This document shows positions 7,451-13,566 of a stretch of DNA of 64,000 bases, one piece after another (positions within the stretch are counted from its first letter, which is position 1; every line of letters begins with the position of its first letter). The position numbers and the translations under genes are program-made. Source of the DNA: Veillonella denticariosi JCM 15641 (GTDB lineage: Bacteria > Bacillota > Negativicutes > Veillonellales > Veillonellaceae); assembly GCF_002959855.1 (NCBI RefSeq), contig NZ_PPDB01000001.1, forward strand, positions 310,001 through 374,000, written 5' to 3'. The notes beneath the pieces were generated by a model. It was given only the letters and a program-made list of their open reading frames with translations, had not been told where the DNA came from and did not search any database.

Positions 7451-7485
7451 AAGCGGTACAACCAATCGGTTGTACCGCTTTTTTT
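7451..7485 (+). terminator. rpsF-ssb-rpsR terminator
   Basis: A perfect 13-bp GC-rich stem (7451-7463 with 7468-7480), an AATC loop and a run of seven T. Confidence 0.95.
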
Positions 7486-7848
7486 ACGCGCTTAATAGGT
7501 ATAAGTAATCATCAGTTACACCAAGCACGTAAATATAAATGTAAAATTATCTAGAAATAATAAACTGTCTGATAGCTTCTTGCTATAACTGTAATGCATA
7601 GTACATATACCGTTTCTTTATCTGTCGAAAAATGCATGATATATGGAGGTAATAAATATTCAATAATGTCGATATAAATATATATAGATCGTTTTTATAG
7701 AATTAGATGAATTATGGTATTTAATATGATTAATCTGTATAAAGAGATTTAACCTAAAATGCATAGAATATTAGAATTATGCATTAAATTCATATTATAA
7801 TACAAATATATAGAATGCTGTAAAGTTCAGTAAAAAGGTGGTGAGTAT
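7486..7848. other. AT-rich intergenic region upstream of the Tat-binding-protein operon
   Basis: About 360 bp without a gene. I see no conserved RNA or ORF with a good RBS. The only structure is the dyad at 7758-7785 next to a -10 box at 7796-7801. Confidence 0.6.
7758..7801 (+). promoter_or_regulatory. candidate operator and -10 box
   Basis: AATGCATA (7758-7765) and TATGCATT (7778-7785) are exact inverted repeats 12 bp apart. TATAAT follows at 7796-7801, so the dyad covers the place where a -35 box would lie (about 7773-7778, AGAATT, a poor match). A weak -35 under a symmetrical site suggests activator or repressor control of the downstream operon. The role is inferred. Confidence 0.45.
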
Positions 7849-8712
7849 GTGGGATTTTTGAAAAAAGATATATCCCGGCGCCAATTTATTGGTGGCGCTT
7901 TAGCTTTAGCCGCAGCTTCCGCAGTACCCTCGTTTATACGCGGTGCGTATAAACCGACACAGACTGATTCACTTCAAGTGTGGACCTGTGGAGGGCTGTC
8001 GGAGGCTTTTTTAGATTTAAATCAAGTCTATACGATGCATACCGGACATAATATTCAGTACACAGGTGCTTTTGCGGGGGCGATCGGTAAATCCCTGATG
8101 GACGGAAAGAGTCGCACCGAGATTTTTGGCGCTCGCGGTTTAGAATTGGCGAAAACTATGCGCAAGAAGGGTGTAAGTATCGCCTTTGAACCGCTATGTT
8201 TTACAGACTATGTTATCGTGACACCGAAAGGAAATCCTGCGGGGATAAGAGATTTGCAGGATATGGCTGAGCCGGGTGTCCGGGTCATGTTGCCGCTGGG
8301 GGCATCACCGCCCGGCAGTGCTTCCGTAAAGGGGATTATGAAATTATCCGGCTTGACAGAGGGCATTATGAAAAACATGGTATCTGAAAATGCCTGTGTT
8401 ATCTCTATGATGTGCGACCTTATAGAGGGGAAAGGGGACGTATCCATTATTGAAAAACGGCTCACTACACATGACCGTTTTAAGGATCGCATCGAATATT
8501 TCCCGATATCACCACAATTCGTGCCGCCGGCACCGTTGACTTTCACCATTAACACGATGAAATATGTGCAGGATCGTGCATTAGCATCGGATTATATTGA
8601 GTTTACACGCTCCAGGGAAGGGCAACAAATCCTTGAAAATCACGGGTTTACATCTGTTCATAGTGCGAGAGGTCTCGATTTGATAGAAAGGTTCGGTGTA
8701 AAAGATGTGTAA
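7849..8712 (+). CDS. Tat-exported periplasmic substrate-binding protein (ModA-like)
   Basis: A 287-residue protein with a twin-arginine signal: SRRQFIGG (R10-R11) and a hydrophobic ALALAAASAVPSF stretch to about residue 29. The rest resembles molybdate/tungstate-type (ModA-like) solute-binding proteins: VWTCGGLSEAF at the mature start, DYVIVTPKGNP near residue 123 and a PLGASPPGSASVKG loop near 146. Tat export means it folds, perhaps with a cofactor, before crossing. No ABC permease or ATPase gene lies nearby. Instead it overlaps by 8 nt the NapH-like gene and shares an operon with a NifB-like enzyme. GTG start at 7849 behind AAGGTGGTGA. The ligand is unknown; an oxyanion or metal complex is a guess. 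Confidence 0.7.
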   Translation: MGFLKKDISRRQFIGGALALAAASAVPSFIRGAYKPTQTDSLQVWTCGGLSEAFLDLNQVYTMHTGHNIQYTGAFAGAIGKSLMDGKSRTEIFGARGLELAKTMRKKGVSIAFEPLCFTDYVIVTPKGNPAGIRDLQDMAEPGVRVMLPLGASPPGSASVKGIMKLSGLTEGIMKNMVSENACVISMMCDLIEGKGDVSIIEKRLTTHDRFKDRIEYFPISPQFVPPAPLTFTINTMKYVQDRALASDYIEFTRSREGQQILENHGFTSVHSARGLDLIERFGVKDV

Positions 8713-9508
8713 TCAATGTCATGCATCCACAAGCTGTACTGTTCAATCCGAAAATGCCTGTGCATCCAGATCGGTAAAAAAACTATCCATATGGCGCCGT
8801 ATCGTGCAGTTTATATTTCTTTTTATTATGGGCAAATGGGTGTATTACGGAGTGTTCCGCTGTCCTTATATCGTGCCTTTCGTCAACTGTGAAAGCTGCT
8901 CCATGATTACCTGCTGGGGGCGAATTACAGCGTATTTCTATGCATGGTGGATTATCATCCTGATTATGGCAGTCCTCTTTGGCCGTGCTTTTTGCAGTTG
9001 GTTCTGTCCAAGTGGATGGGTAAATCAAATGCTGGGGAAACTTTCAATAAGCAAATGGAAAAATCGAAAGTCCTATATGCGCTTATTCCAGCTGGGGATG
9101 GTGATTATGGTTGTATTAGGCGCTATCGTATATTTCAAATACGGCAATCCCCGCATTATGATACCGATACGGACGAGTGATGAATATTTTAATGCAGTCA
9201 TTTTATCTATGCAGTTCTCAGAATGGTATTGGGCTGCCCGTACCATTACGGTGGTATCCATTATCGCCGCATCCCTTATTATTGCTAATGTATGGTGCAG
9301 ATTTGTATGTCCTGTAGGGGGCATCATGGAACTGATTCGTAAGATTTCTATCTTCAGAGTCTATAAAACTGATGCTTGTGATAACTGTGATGCGTGCCTG
9401 CGCATCTGTGAAATGGGAACTCGCCCCGATGAAATGAACTGTACTAACTGTGGTGATTGTTTGCATGTATGTCATAAGAATGCCATTAAGTTCGGACGGA
9501 AAGGTTGA
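8705..9508 (+). CDS. NapH-like 4Fe-4S membrane electron-transfer protein
   Basis: A 267-residue inner-membrane protein with about five hydrophobic helices (residues 34-50, 78-94, 128-145, 178-196 plus a short one). NapH/CcoG-type marks: FGRAFCSWFCPSGW (C97, C101) and CRFVCPVGG (C198, C202). At the C-terminus are two ferredoxin motifs, C225/228/231/235 and C246/249/252/256. Extra N-terminal cysteines (C2, C5, C11, C19) are unusual. NapH passes electrons from quinol to periplasmic partners in nitrate reduction, but no napA, B or G is present. Here it sits between a Tat-exported binding protein and a NifB-core enzyme, so it may feed electrons to one of them (inference). The ATG overlaps the upstream stop. 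Confidence 0.8.
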   Translation: MCNQCHASTSCTVQSENACASRSVKKLSIWRRIVQFIFLFIMGKWVYYGVFRCPYIVPFVNCESCSMITCWGRITAYFYAWWIIILIMAVLFGRAFCSWFCPSGWVNQMLGKLSISKWKNRKSYMRLFQLGMVIMVVLGAIVYFKYGNPRIMIPIRTSDEYFNAVILSMQFSEWYWAARTITVVSIIAASLIIANVWCRFVCPVGGIMELIRKISIFRVYKTDACDNCDACLRICEMGTRPDEMNCTNCGDCLHVCHKNAIKFGRKG

Positions 9509-9510
9509 GT

Positions 9511-10341
9511 ATGAAAGAGATTCAAGGACAAAGTTTCTTGCAAAATCATCCGTGTTACAACAAGGATGCCGCGGCCAACTGGGGACGATTACATTTGCCG
9601 GTAGCACCGAATTGTAACATTCGATGTAATTATTGTAATCGCATGTACGATTGTGCCAATGAAAATCGTCCGGGCGTGACACAACATATATATACGCCTC
9701 AAGAGGCTGTATCTTTTGTGCGGAAGGTATTTGATGCGCGTCGAGATATTTCCGTTGTCGGTATTGCTGGACCCGGAGATCCCATGTGTGATGCGGATAA
9801 GACCCTCGAAACATTTCGTCTCGTGAAACGTGAAATCCCTCATGTGATGTTGTGTTTATCCAGTAATGGTCTTGCCGTTCCGGATTATATTGACGCTATT
9901 CATGATTTAGGAATTACTCATGTGACGATTACGGTAAATGCTATCGACCCGGTCGTGGCGAGCCATATGTATTCCATGGTGTGCTATGATGATACGATTT
10001 ATAGAGGTATTGAGGGGGCTCGTATTTTATTGGAACGTCAGGCTGAAAGTATCAGAAAATTAAAGGAACGAAATTTTATCGTCAAAATTAATACGGTGGT
10101 TGTACCGGAAGTCAACATGGATCATGTACCGGCTATCGCTAAACAGGCGGAAGAGTGGGGTGTCGACCTGATGAATTGTATCGCCATGATTCCCGTACAT
10201 GATACATTCTTTGCGAATCATCGGAGTCCGACGAAGGATGAAATTGATAATATACGCCGGTTCATTCGACACTATGTGCCTCAGATGACACATTGCAATC
10301 GGTGTCGTGCCGATGCAATAGGACGACTACGCGAGGCATAG
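9511..10341 (+). CDS. NifB-core radical SAM protein (stand-alone, no NifX domain)
   Basis: A 276-residue radical SAM enzyme that follows the nitrogenase cofactor protein NifB from end to end: HPC (H13, C15), the SAM-cluster motif C35-x3-C39-x2-C42, YDC (C48), ENRP at 51-54, LCLSSNG (C115), HVTITVNAIDP near 137-147, IYRGIEGA near 163-170 and a C-terminal HCNRCRAD (C262, C265). In NifB the residues outside the SAM motif hold the two K-clusters that are fused with carbide into the 8Fe-9S-C NifB-co. All are kept here, so that chemistry is plausible. No NifX domain and no nifHDKEN in the window. ATG 9511, spaced 6 nt from GGAAAGG, is preferred over TTG 9505, which touches the RBS. Confidence 0.85.
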   Translation: MKEIQGQSFLQNHPCYNKDAAANWGRLHLPVAPNCNIRCNYCNRMYDCANENRPGVTQHIYTPQEAVSFVRKVFDARRDISVVGIAGPGDPMCDADKTLETFRLVKREIPHVMLCLSSNGLAVPDYIDAIHDLGITHVTITVNAIDPVVASHMYSMVCYDDTIYRGIEGARILLERQAESIRKLKERNFIVKINTVVVPEVNMDHVPAIAKQAEEWGVDLMNCIAMIPVHDTFFANHRSPTKDEIDNIRRFIRHYVPQMTHCNRCRADAIGRLREA

Positions 10342-10369
10342 GGCAAATTATATATTTCCGGAGGGGGAG

Positions 10370-10420
10370 ATGTATTTACTAAAAATGAAATGTTTTGGAC
10401 GAAAAAAAGGCTATATATAA
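10370..10420 (+). CDS. possible 16-residue microprotein after the NifB-like gene
   Basis: An ATG at 10370 lies 5 nt behind a near-perfect Shine-Dalgarno (GGAGGGGG, 10360-10367). It opens a 16-codon frame, MYLLKMKCFGRKKGYI, ending TAA inside the terminator stem. It is basic, with one cysteine. No homologue is known to me. The strong RBS, 29 nt after the NifB-like stop, is the only evidence for it. Confidence 0.25.
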   Translation: MYLLKMKCFGRKKGYI

Positions 10421-10432
10421 TATATAACCTTT
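10403..10432. terminator. bidirectional terminator between the NifB-like gene and the desulfurase
   Basis: AAAGG and a seven-base TA tract pair with their mirror (stem 10406-10410 with 10428-10432 plus inner TA pairs). A and T runs flank it. It separates the convergent genes. Confidence 0.7.
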
Positions 10433-10439
10433 AGATTAT

Positions 10440-11591
10440 TTAAGTATTCGTAATTATGCGCAGTGCGGACAGTGTTTTTGCTACATCTTCCTGGGTATTG
10501 GCATAGCCGAAGGAGAAACGCACGGTTCCTTTGGGATAGGTCCCCAGTGTTTTGTGCGCTCGCGGTGCACAATGAAGCCCCACACGAGTCATGATGTGAT
10601 GGATTGATTCGAGCTCGTAGGCTACGGTGGCCGGATCCATATTGTCTACGGTGATTGACACGACGGCTGTCCTGTCCTGTGTATCCTGTTTACCGATGAT
10701 ATGAATGCCCTTTATCGCTTGTAATCCTGCGAGAAATGTTTTGGTTAGAGCCATTTCATGGTTGTGAATTGATTCTATTCCTCGAGACTCTATAAATCTA
10801 AGTCCTTCGTTGAGGCCGATAATGCCGGGCAAGTTCAACGTGCCCGCTTCAAAGGCGTCAGGCATCGTGGTCGGCATGGTTTCCAAGTGCGAAAAACTGC
10901 CGGTACCGCCCGCTATAAGTGCGATGAGTTGATTTGCCATATCTTTTGTCATTACAATACCGCCGACACCTTGCGGACCGAGTAATCCTTTATGTCCTGT
11001 AAAACAGAGTGCGTCAATGTGTGATGCTTTCACATCGATAGGCAGTGTGCCCGCTGTCTGAGCACTATCGACGATGAAATGTAAATTATGGCGTTTGCAT
11101 ATTTCGCCGATTTCCGCAATAGGTTGTACGGTGCCGCATACATTAGAGGCGTGATTGATGATGATAGCCACCGTTTTGGGCTGAATGAGATTCTGTATTG
11201 CAGGGAGGTCGATAGATCCTGTTGTATCGCAAGGAATGACATCAAATGTGATGCCATCTGCAAGCAATTGGGTCAGAGGCCTCATAACGGCATTATGTTC
11301 CATCGAGCTGACGAGTACATGGTCCCCCTGCTTGAGCAGTCCCTTAATGACCATGTTGAGGCTCATCGTAACATTCTGTGTAAAGATAACATGGGACGGA
11401 TCGCAGCCGTTGAATAGATGATGTAGACGTTCACGTGTCGTATAGATGATATCCTCTACATCATAAGCGAGAGTGTAGGAGCCTCGGTTGATATTGATAC
11501 CCCGGTTTGTAATATAGTTTGCCATAGCGTTCGCTACGGTCGGCGCTTTGGGAAATGTCGTACAGGCATTGTCCAGATAAATATAGTTCAT
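10440..11591 (-). CDS. cysteine desulfurase family PLP enzyme
   Basis: A 383-residue class-V aminotransferase-fold enzyme of the cysteine desulfurase/selenocysteine lyase type, releasing sulfur or selenium from cysteine or selenocysteine. Seen: [13 protein letters not shown] at the start, [49 protein letters not shown] and the PLP lysine in [14 protein letters not shown] late LHCAPRAH holds the likely catalytic cysteine. The frame extends 45 codons upstream, but ATG 11591, behind GGAGATT, begins exactly at the conserved MNYIYLDN. Divergent from the YedE-type gene. Together with YedE and DUF3343 this is the arrangement seen in selenium-handling clusters, so a role in selenium supply is likely but unproven. 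Confidence 0.85.
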
Positions 11592-11711
11592 AGGCAATCT
11601 CCATGAATGATAATGTATATTTATGGTTATTATATCATGCTTATATATTTTTATTCTGGTGGATTCATATAGTTTGGTTTTGTTGTATAGGTAAGCGGAA
11701 AGGAGTTTATT

Positions 11712-12773
11712 ATGAATGGGTTTCATGAGAAACGGACGTTGATTATTTCAGGTCTTATTATCGGGGCAATTGCAGGCTTTCTGGTGTTGGCAGGTAATCC
11801 TGCTAATATGGGATTTTGTATCGCCTGCTTTATTCGTGATACCGTTGGTAGTCTTGGTCTGCACCGGGCTGCACCGGTACAGTATATTCGCCCTGAAGTC
11901 ATCGGGCTTATATTAGGCGCTTATGCATTATCCATTATTCGGGGGGAACATCAGAGCAAGGGCGGTTCGTCGCCTATCATTCGATTTATTCTCGGCTTTT
12001 TTGTCATGATCGGTTCCTTGATGTTTCTCGGGTGTCCTCTTCGCATGATTTTGCGCCTGGGCGGAGGCGATTTAAATGCTATTTTCGGTATTCTCGGCTT
12101 TGCCGGAGGTGTCGGTATCGGAACGATTTTTTTAAAGCGCGGATATTCATTGCAACGTACCTATGCGTTGAGTAAACTGGAATCAGCCATGATGCCTGCC
12201 ATCCAAGTGGCTTTGCTGATTCTCCTTGTGGCTGCACCGGCATTTATCCTCTTTAGTCAAAAAGGTCCCGGCTCAATGCATGCACCTTGGCTTATTTCCT
12301 TGGTCGCAGGTCTGGTTGTAGGCGGCCTTGCTCAATTAAGCCGGCTTTGCACCGTTGGTGGCTTCCGTGATTTATTCTTGTTCAAAAAATCTATTCTTAT
12401 CTTTGGTTATTTAGCTGTTCTCATTGGTGTATTCGTTGTAAATATCAGCTTTGGTAATTTCCATCTCGGCTTTGAAAACCAACCGATTGCACATACAGAT
12501 GGATTGTGGAACTTCCTGGGTATGGCGCTTGCAGGTTTCTGCAGTGTATTGCTTGGCGGTTGCCCGTTGCGTCAACTTATCATGACCGGTGAAGGTAATT
12601 CCGATTCCGCTGTTACAGTACTTGGCCTTGCGGCAGGGGCTGCATTTGCACATAATTTTGGCCTTGCCGCATCCGGTGCAGGGCCTACATTGAATGGTCA
12701 GATTGCTGTAGGTGTTGGATTTATAGTAGCACTCATCATTGCTATATTTAATACAAAACGCGCTAATGCTTAG
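11712..12773 (+). CDS. yedE: YedE/YeeE-family selenium/sulfur transporter
   Basis: An integral membrane protein of 353 residues with about nine to ten helices. Conserved cysteine motifs mark the YedE family: [10 protein letters not shown] near residue 37, FLGCPLRM near 101, [10 protein letters not shown] near 214 and a second GCPLRQL near 281. YeeE/YedE proteins import thiosulfate or related sulfur species. The subgroup with both GCPLR motifs, next to DUF3343 and a desulfurase, is linked to selenium metabolism. AGGAG lies 6 nt before the ATG. Divergent from the desulfurase gene, with a shared 120-bp promoter region. The transported species cannot be read from sequence. Confidence 0.82.
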
Positions 12774-12869
12774 ATTGTAGCAGTTTGGACTTTATGTGAT
12801 ATGATTAATGTATAGTTGATATTTGTAATCTATAATTCCATTTGTTAAATTACCTAGAATTGAGTATCT

Positions 12870-13118
12870 ATGAAATATATTGCTACTTTTTATTCCCATT
12901 TCGGTGCGATTCGATTTAAACGTGAGGCCCCTGAGGGGGTAACCGATATAGAACTACGTCCTGTACCGCGCGATCTGAGTTCGTCCTGTGGAACCAGTGC
13001 CTCCTTTGATGCTGGTGAAAGTTTTACGTTTACAGATGATCCGACCGGTGAGATTGAACAAATCGTATCTGTAACCGATACAGGCTATACTATTATTTAC
13101 GAAAGTCATAATAAATGA
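12870..13118 (+). CDS. DUF3343 putative Se/S carrier protein
   Basis: A small cytosolic protein of 82 residues. The family mark RPVPRDLSSSCGTSASF (residues 30-46) contains the single conserved cysteine, C40, which is thought to carry sulfur or selenium as a persulfide or perselenide. It lies 96 nt after the YedE-type gene and is probably co-transcribed with it. The TusA-like protein that often accompanies this pair is absent. The start lacks a clear Shine-Dalgarno. Function is inferred from family context. Confidence 0.75.
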   Translation: MKYIATFYSHFGAIRFKREAPEGVTDIELRPVPRDLSSSCGTSASFDAGESFTFTDDPTGEIEQIVSVTDTGYTIIYESHNK

Positions 13119-13123
13119 TTTAA

Positions 13124-13156
13124 AAGAGGAGTCATCTTAATGCGATGGCTCCTCTT
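13124..13156 (+). terminator. hairpin after the DUF3343 gene
   Basis: A 13-bp stem (13124-13136 with 13144-13156, one G-U pair) and a 7-nt loop. The downstream tail is not T-rich, so termination is less certain than the stem. Confidence 0.55.
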
Positions 13157-13566
13157 ATGGTGTACGAATCTATATTTTTTAGGTGTCTCTCCGTTTTAAT
13201 CTCCTTAATCTGATGCTCTATTAATGATAATAATATACATATATTCATCAAAAACTATACATAATAAATTATAATTGTATGAGTTTTCGAATGTTAAGAA
13301 TTGGTAATGGTTTTTAAAATGCTGTAAGTCCGCATAAAGATTGATTTGATGACAGTTCTCGATTGTTATTAAATTTATAATTTTGTTATAATTGTTAAAA
13401 ATTTATAGTTTTTTTGGAACTGGGACTATAAAAATTAGATGAAGTATTATATAATAATACCTACAGTATGTATTATAGTAAGAATAATTGTTGTTAATGT
13501 ATGTAACTACAGTATTATTGCTTGATAAATCTATATAACATTAATGGTAAGGGAGATTGCAGGACG
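13157..13566. other. AT-rich intergenic region with a small dyad
   Basis: About 410 bp without a gene. A TATAAT at 13450-13455 runs into an imperfect dyad at 13455-13475, with arms TAATAC and GTATTA around TAcagTA. CTACAGTAT occurs in the dyad and again at about 13507. These could be regulatory sites for the secreted protein downstream. Nothing else is recognisable. Confidence 0.4.

Follow-up and report, generated by a model that had tools for sequence, protein, structure and literature searches.

NifB chemistry is known from nitrogenases, from methylthio-alkane reductase and, by inference, from MCR activation. Methanogens provide a precedent for NifB without nitrogenase: the protein is essential in methanogens that lack nitrogenase, and the MCR activation complex holds L-cluster-like centres (PMC12176620). 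The selenium-context genes described by Lin et al. (2015) comprise YedE, YedF, DUF3343, selenocysteine (Sec) lyase and a DCCP/activase (activase/dehydratase) pair; radical SAM proteins, NifB and ferredoxins go unmentioned in that set (PMC5322559). Here we analyse a locus of Veillonella denticariosi JCM 15641 in which a NifB-core gene lies beside genes of the selenium context. A search of open-access full texts found no paper that brings NifB together with YedE, or with both Veillonella and C. concisus, and no description of the system presented below.

Gene layout and extent of the island

Three open reading frames were confirmed at 7849-10341 of the Veillonella window (the whole stretch of 64,000 nucleotides that was analysed). 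We refer to them as the trio, and to the first protein as SBP. The trio and its neighbours are as follows.

7849 to 8712, forward strand: SBP, a 287-residue Tat-signal protein of ModA/PEB3 fold (PF13531, 6e-36; PF10518 above its cut-off; model Z 19.9 against 4kd5)
8705 to 9508, forward strand: NapH-like membrane polyferredoxin of 267 residues (Fer4_5, 5.4e-17; NapH/MauN, 1.6e-16, below its cut-off; 16 invariant cysteines)
9511 to 10341, forward strand: NifB-core radical SAM enzyme without a NifX domain (TIGR01290; PDB 6y1x, E 4.5e-76; clade 98/98)
10440 to 11726, reverse strand: cysteine desulfurase or selenocysteine-lyase-like PLP enzyme (TIGR01977; SclA-like, below the SclA cut-off)
11712 to 12773, forward strand: putative selenium transporter of the YedE family (TIGR04112, 508.6 bits against a cut-off of 200)
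12870 to 13118, forward strand: DUF3343 putative Se/S carrier protein (PF11823, 4.7e-9)
7485 to 13373, no strand assigned: whole island of trio, Sec-lyase-like enzyme, YedE and DUF3343, between rpsR and the 13522 ORF/trmB, present or absent as a block

The start of the NapH-like gene overlaps the SBP stop (8705/8712), indicating tight coupling, and the NifB-like frame, which opens at a TTG at 9505, more likely starts at the ATG at 9511, 2 nt past the NapH-like stop. This spacing, together with a gene order kept across two phyla, bears out the tight linkage claimed in the sequence-only reading. None of the three trio proteins reaches an equivalog cut-off (NCBIfam), and therefore none is a member of a curated, named family. 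Promoter and terminator scans near the genes gave nothing better than shuffled sequences, and matches there to riboswitches or other known RNAs were all sub-threshold.

The unit had originally been drawn at 7849-10341. The trio does occupy that interval, but the co-inherited block is longer, at about 7485-13373. Five congeners without the trio continue from the equivalent of window position 7484 to that of window positions 13374-13402, with a gap of 144-260 bp in three of them. In Veillonella the trio, PLP enzyme, YedE and DUF3343 thus form a 5.9-kb island that is gained or lost as a block. The earlier description of a selenium/sulfur set lying next door was correct as to adjacency but understated the association, since in Veillonella the set comes and goes together with the trio, and other families show the linkage too.

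The rpsR-trmB interval is a variable slot. Four Veillonella strains (L083 6567-9063, L085 9184-11648, L088 13846-16253 and L013 13584-16067) carry in it a MerR-type regulator and a transketolase/DXS-like protein of about 590 residues, the latter as two open reading frames in L013.

The NifB-like enzyme

The top NCBIfam match of the third trio protein is NifB (1.4e-97), and it also matches both NifB structures, PDB 6y1x (E 4.5e-76) and 7bi7 (E 3e-66). The TIGR01290 cut-off is narrowly missed (327.2 against 343.65 bits) because the C-terminal NifX part is absent, and the match spans model positions 9-277 of 441. Ligands reported for MtNifB are the RS motif with C62, the K1 ligands C29, H42, C128 and E65, and the K2 ligands C273 and C276 (PMC9692996). 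Alignment to these residues confirmed that every NifB ligand motif is present, as had been claimed: CxxxCxxC and all published RS, K1 and K2 ligands are kept in the trio family, with the exception of one relative (L121) in which the ligand Glu is Ala. Two invariant or nearly invariant cysteines are extra relative to canonical NifB (numbering from TTG as residue 1).

9787 to 9789, forward strand: NifB Cys95, present in 24/25 trio proteins against 0/22 canonical ones, all 22 of which have Ala
10177 to 10179, forward strand: NifB Cys225, present in 25/25 trio proteins against 0/22 canonical ones, all 22 of which have Ile or Val

In a maximum-likelihood tree the 25 trio NifBs form a single clade (98/98). 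The Campylobacter trio NifBs nest among those of Veillonellales (100/97), a placement suggesting that Campylobacter acquired the trio by transfer. Campylobacter is again one group inside the Veillonellales set in the NapH tree; a quick SBP tree did not fix its exact position. A separate long branch of the NifB tree holds another short NifB without a NifX domain (L213 9212-10075 and L214 1106-2005), which has as neighbours solute transport genes and genes of NifH-like or nitrogenase-like type. Given its ligand set, the trio enzyme may make a complex Fe-S cluster, which we rank as the likeliest of the functional steps considered here.

Absence of nitrogenase and distribution of the trio

The V. 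denticariosi assembly (7 contigs, 99.99% complete) gave no match to PF00148 (NifDKEN) or PF02579 (NifX) in a whole-genome check, and its matches to the NifH family were partial P-loop matches only, with no true NifH. The absence of nitrogenase partners, first noted for the window, therefore holds for this genome. Trio gene order is kept in Veillonella, Megasphaera-type, Sporomusa-type and Campylobacter loci; dozens of genomes from two phyla share it, at identities down to about 50%, which excludes chance. Co-occurrence of the three genes without nitrogenase, which had been put forward as a check across genomes, was found in 23 of 38 trio carriers; these 23, without any PF00148 match, are 6/6 Veillonella, 15/15 Campylobacter and two others; neither a nitrogenase operon using this NifB nor a loss of linkage emerged. 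Those nitrogenase-bearing carriers that were examined have additional NifBs apart from the trio copy, in most cases adjoining PF00148 genes, and these additional NifBs score at most 325 bits against the trio profile, compared with at least 425 for trio NifBs.

Because its ligands are kept, it is monophyletic, it coexists with nif-linked NifBs and 23 of the 38 carriers lack PF00148, the trio NifB branch, judged from sequence, is a dedicated one with its own job. We rejected the idea that it is left over from a lost nif cluster, given its own clade, its own operon and the coexisting nif-linked NifBs. A functionless relic or neutral passenger would account for the decaying copies seen in some Campylobacter; full ligand conservation and an operon order kept over two phyla speak against it, and we regard it as hardly credible. 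The decay itself affects a set of Campylobacter genomes (L077, L081, L082 and L079): SBP is interrupted in three, one of which also lacks NapH and NifB at the locus, and a further genome of the set has DCCP remnants.

A sample of 398 Bacillota genomes yielded the V. denticariosi genome as the sole match at E <= 1e-30. Beyond Bacillota and Campylobacterota, coverage consisted of one degenerate-pattern scan of contigs, which finds close relatives, and of plasmid records; plasmid matches to SBP proved to be ordinary modA-type proteins. Individual loci have further neighbours. Directly upstream of the SBP gene of Megasphaera micronuciformis lies a fragment resembling the NapH C-terminus (L017 8128-8214), possibly a duplication remnant. 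One Campylobacter trio is closely followed by the gene of a FAD protein that resembles flavocytochrome c and has an N-terminus of Tat type (L078 12675-14225), and genes for a corrinoid protein and a UroD/MtaA-type methyltransferase lie upstream of the trio in two Sporomusa-type loci (L145 and L148).

The ModA-fold protein with a Tat signal

SBP matches SBP_bac_11 (6e-36) and the TAT_signal family PF10518 (24.7 against a cut-off of 22.7 bits), and its predicted model (mean pLDDT 71) has a ModA/PEB3 fold (Foldseek E about 1e-13; Z 19.9 to the ModA-like 4kd5). The earlier prediction of a Tat-exported, ModA-like partner is upheld by both family matches, PF10518 and PF13531, and by the fold. Five sites stand out.

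7876 to 7881, forward strand: twin arginine of the Tat motif (SRRQF), an RR-x-F-type motif found in nearly all relatives
7987 to 7989, forward strand: SBP Cys47, beside the ModA Ser12 loop and two residues before the Ser12 position, where Gly49 replaces Ser12; invariant in 36/36
8197 to 8199, forward strand: SBP Cys117, invariant in 36/36
8395 to 8397, forward strand: SBP Cys183, in 33/33 ungapped sequences, inserted immediately ahead of the residue that corresponds to ModA Val152
8452 to 8454, forward strand: SBP Glu202, invariant, where ModA has Tyr170

Exceptions to the Tat motif are L080, where it is lost and the start is broken, and L018, which has SRRQL. A further cysteine, Cys189, is not kept in distant members. 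The Tat pathway exports folded proteins, often with the cofactor already inserted, and Tat export fits a cofactor-bearing SBP. The V. denticariosi genome encodes TatA, and a search covering roughly 60% of it gave no TatC; in L122, TatA and TatC follow SBP, NapH, NifB and the PLP enzyme in a single gene string.

Escherichia coli ModA contacts its oxyanion through Ser12, Ser39, Ala125, Val152 and Tyr170 (PMC8895017). Aligned with it, SBP has lost three of the five molybdate contacts (Ser12 to Gly49, Ser39 to Ala76 and Tyr170 to Glu202), and Ala125 is Gly. Because these contacts are lost, no ModB or ModC gene lies beside SBP in the window and an ordinary ModABC locus is present elsewhere in the genome, we rejected the idea that SBP binds molybdate for an ABC transporter. 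Instead, the ModA pocket would have three invariant cysteines and one glutamate within or beside it, a placement taken from a remote alignment to ModA and least certain for Cys117. Such a pocket suggests that SBP binds a cluster, though the three cysteines could bind another metal or a selenium or sulfur compound.

The NapH-like membrane protein

The second trio protein has a Fer4_5 domain and NapH/MauN as its best NCBIfam match, at 60.6 bits against a napH cut-off of 213. Across 36 sequences, 16 cysteines are invariant: those of two CxxxCP motifs, those of two ferredoxin motifs, and a further four.

8861 to 8914, forward strand: NapH-like Cys53, Cys62, Cys65 and Cys70 (RCP...NCxxC...TCWGR), invariant in 36/36

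Invariance of all ferredoxin and CxxxCP motifs agrees with the membrane electron carrier predicted earlier. The four extra N-terminal cysteines picked out at the time (C2, C5, C11 and C19) did not hold up as a family trait; they are lineage-specific, being absent in Megasphaera, Anaeroglobus and Colibacter, and the conserved extras are C53, C62, C65 and C70.

These four residues also permit a reading in which NifB matures a special cluster of the NapH-like protein at Cys53/62/65/70, and SBP only captures or transfers a metal or a selenium or sulfur compound. Their invariance is consistent with it, as is the fact that ModA and PEB3 folds belong to ligand-capture proteins. However, it leaves both the folded Tat export of a capture protein and the three pocket cysteines unexplained, and no ABC partner of SBP is encoded in the window; we consider this reading improbable.

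Linkage to selenium and sulfur genes

In the V. denticariosi genome, about 14 kb separates the trio from the SelD and YedF genes upstream of it. Megasphaera-type loci contain Sec lyase and DUF3343 plus TusA and SelD, and selD adjoins the selenium/sulfur set in L017, L018, L021 and L121. Four Sporomusa-type loci at about 50% identity (L145, L147, L148 and L149) have the order SBP-NapH-NifB-YedE-TusA, and the neighbourhood in L150 and L152 includes YedE, TusA, the PLP enzyme, DCCP and activase. The PLP enzyme gene directly adjoins NifB on the same strand in L121, L122 and L152 and lies on the same strand in L150. Selenium genes were absent near the trio in five Sporomusa-type loci, one of them at a contig end, and in Campylobacter carriers the trio stands alone or behind activase-DCCP, with no adjacent selenium genes.

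SelD was found in 19/19 genomes searched, including 14/14 Veillonella with or without the trio, and so failed to discriminate carriers from non-carriers; its presence in trio-less Veillonella means that the trio is not needed for selenium use as such. In Megasphaera-type, Colibacter and Campylobacter genomes (L023, L024, L026, L040 and L041), and not in Veillonella, SelD is probably a selenoprotein, because one in-frame TGA is read through. One study names Veillonellaceae as a major group (about 20%) in selenium-oxyanion-reducing sludge (PMC4844624), an abundance that is only suggestive as support for a selenium role.

The direct junction of the PLP enzyme gene with NifB on one strand in L121, L122 and L152 is what would be expected if YedE, TusA, DUF3343 and the PLP enzyme fed NifB to give a selenium-bearing cluster, the substrate being unrelated to selenium. 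The two extra invariant NifB cysteines could then handle the extra chalcogen. This reading accounts for the data nearly as well as our best model; set against it are the Campylobacter and several Sporomusa-type loci without nearby selenium genes and the fact that sulfur alone suffices for NifB-type clusters, and we judge it unlikely.

It is also conceivable that the system handles sulfur and not selenium, as a respiratory or assimilatory reductase of an oxidised sulfur compound, with YedE, the desulfurase and TusA handling sulfur. YedE is distantly related to sulfur transporters, and the DUF3343 and TusA families are not exclusive to selenium (PMC5322559); the PLP enzyme, moreover, falls below the SclA cut-off. 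The score of YedE far above the TIGR04112 selenium cut-off and the fact that selD adjoins the set in L017, L018, L021 and L121 count against a sulfur system, which we think quite unlikely.

The trio follows activase-DCCP genes in L078 and L081, and such genes are found upstream of it in L150 and close to it in L152, so that NifB might supply DCCP or another cytoplasmic enzyme, leaving SBP and NapH as a side branch. However, 14 Veillonella genomes, including six trio carriers, gave no DCCP match at E <= 1e-15, which makes dependence of the trio on DCCP unlikely, and DCCP is a selenium-neighbourhood gene in its own right (PMC5322559). We hold this supply role to be very improbable.

Proposed function

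Our best model is that a nitrogenase-independent NifB branch builds a complex Fe-S cluster of the 8Fe type, perhaps with carbide and perhaps with selenium, for which the linked PLP enzyme would mobilise sulfur or selenium. The cluster would be inserted in the cytoplasm into the ModA-fold pocket (Cys47, Cys117, Cys183 and Glu202), and because of this SBP would be exported by Tat in folded form. Outside the membrane, the SBP cluster would be reduced with quinol electrons by way of the NapH-like polyferredoxin, making SBP a reductase. The likeliest substrate would be a selenium (or sulfur) compound in oxidised form; its reduced product may enter by YedE and pass through TusA/DUF3343 to SelD. YedE could, however, be an exporter (PMC5322559), which would tell against this route.

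The architecture is well supported: gene linkage, island behaviour, protein families, ligand conservation, the Tat motif and the absence of nitrogenase are all observed. Cluster identity, transfer to SBP, direction and path of electron flow, and substrate are what we infer from it. Likelihood falls along the series from the NifB-made cluster, through its receipt by SBP, Tat export and quinol electrons by NapH, to a selenium or sulfur substrate handled by YedE. Taken as a whole, a NifB-made cluster in a Tat-exported, quinol/NapH-fed SBP that serves in the redox chemistry or the uptake of selenium (or sulfur) falls a little short of being probable, and we propose it tentatively. More doubtful is the specific version in which a dedicated NifB makes a nitrogenase-type carbide cluster, possibly with selenium, and places it in a binding-protein fold that acts as a Tat-exported, quinol-driven reductase for selenium acquisition. 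A sensing role, also raised in the sequence-only reading, found no support.

Comparison with known systems

Nitrogenase-free mouth and gut bacteria with a conserved trio and, usually, selenium genes suggest an undescribed use of such clusters outside nitrogen fixation. If the model is true, the trio would add to the users of NifB chemistry one that is linked to selenium and is the first with a predicted export. The idea can be tested directly: both Veillonella and Campylobacter concisus grow in culture, work on three to six genes would be enough, and the block is naturally missing from some species. What is new is the system as a whole, as each protein belongs in or near a known family. The combination falls outside both nitrogenases and ModABC transporters, lacks Nap partners in its gene string and goes beyond the selenium clusters described earlier (PMC5322559).

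Several described systems resemble parts of it. The published selenium neighbourhood of YedE, YedF, DUF3343, Sec lyase and SelD with DCCP/activase has accessory genes identical to those near the trio, but NifB, NapH and SBP themselves are not mentioned there (PMC5322559). The double-cubane cluster protein DCCP (NF040772; PDB 6eno) is a low-potential, complex Fe-S reductase and lies beside the trio in some genomes; it is not exported and was not found in Veillonella. Periplasmic quinol-dependent Nap/Nos modules also pair a NapH-type membrane polyferredoxin with a Tat-exported partner, whereas the trio gene string has no NapA, NapG or NosZ and the partner is a ModA-fold protein. SBP shares its fold (Z 16-20) and distant sequence similarity with the ModA/PEB3/AcfC solute-binding proteins, yet differs in its Tat signal, the loss of three of five molybdate contacts, its three invariant cysteines and glutamate, and the lack of an ABC partner in the window. 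The methanogen NifB and MCR activation complex (PMC12176620) likewise use a NifB-core protein without nitrogenase, but that case is archaeal and cytoplasmic, with McrC/Mmp7 as recipients, whereas the trio is bacterial and its recipient is predicted to be exported. Finally, the nitrogenase cofactor B synthase NifB (TIGR01290, 6y1x, 7bi7) shares the core family, all RS/K1/K2 ligands and roughly 40-50% identity with the trio enzyme, which differs in lacking the NifX domain, forming its own clade, carrying the extra fixed C95 and C225, and being linked to SBP, NapH and selenium genes in a genome without NifDKEN.
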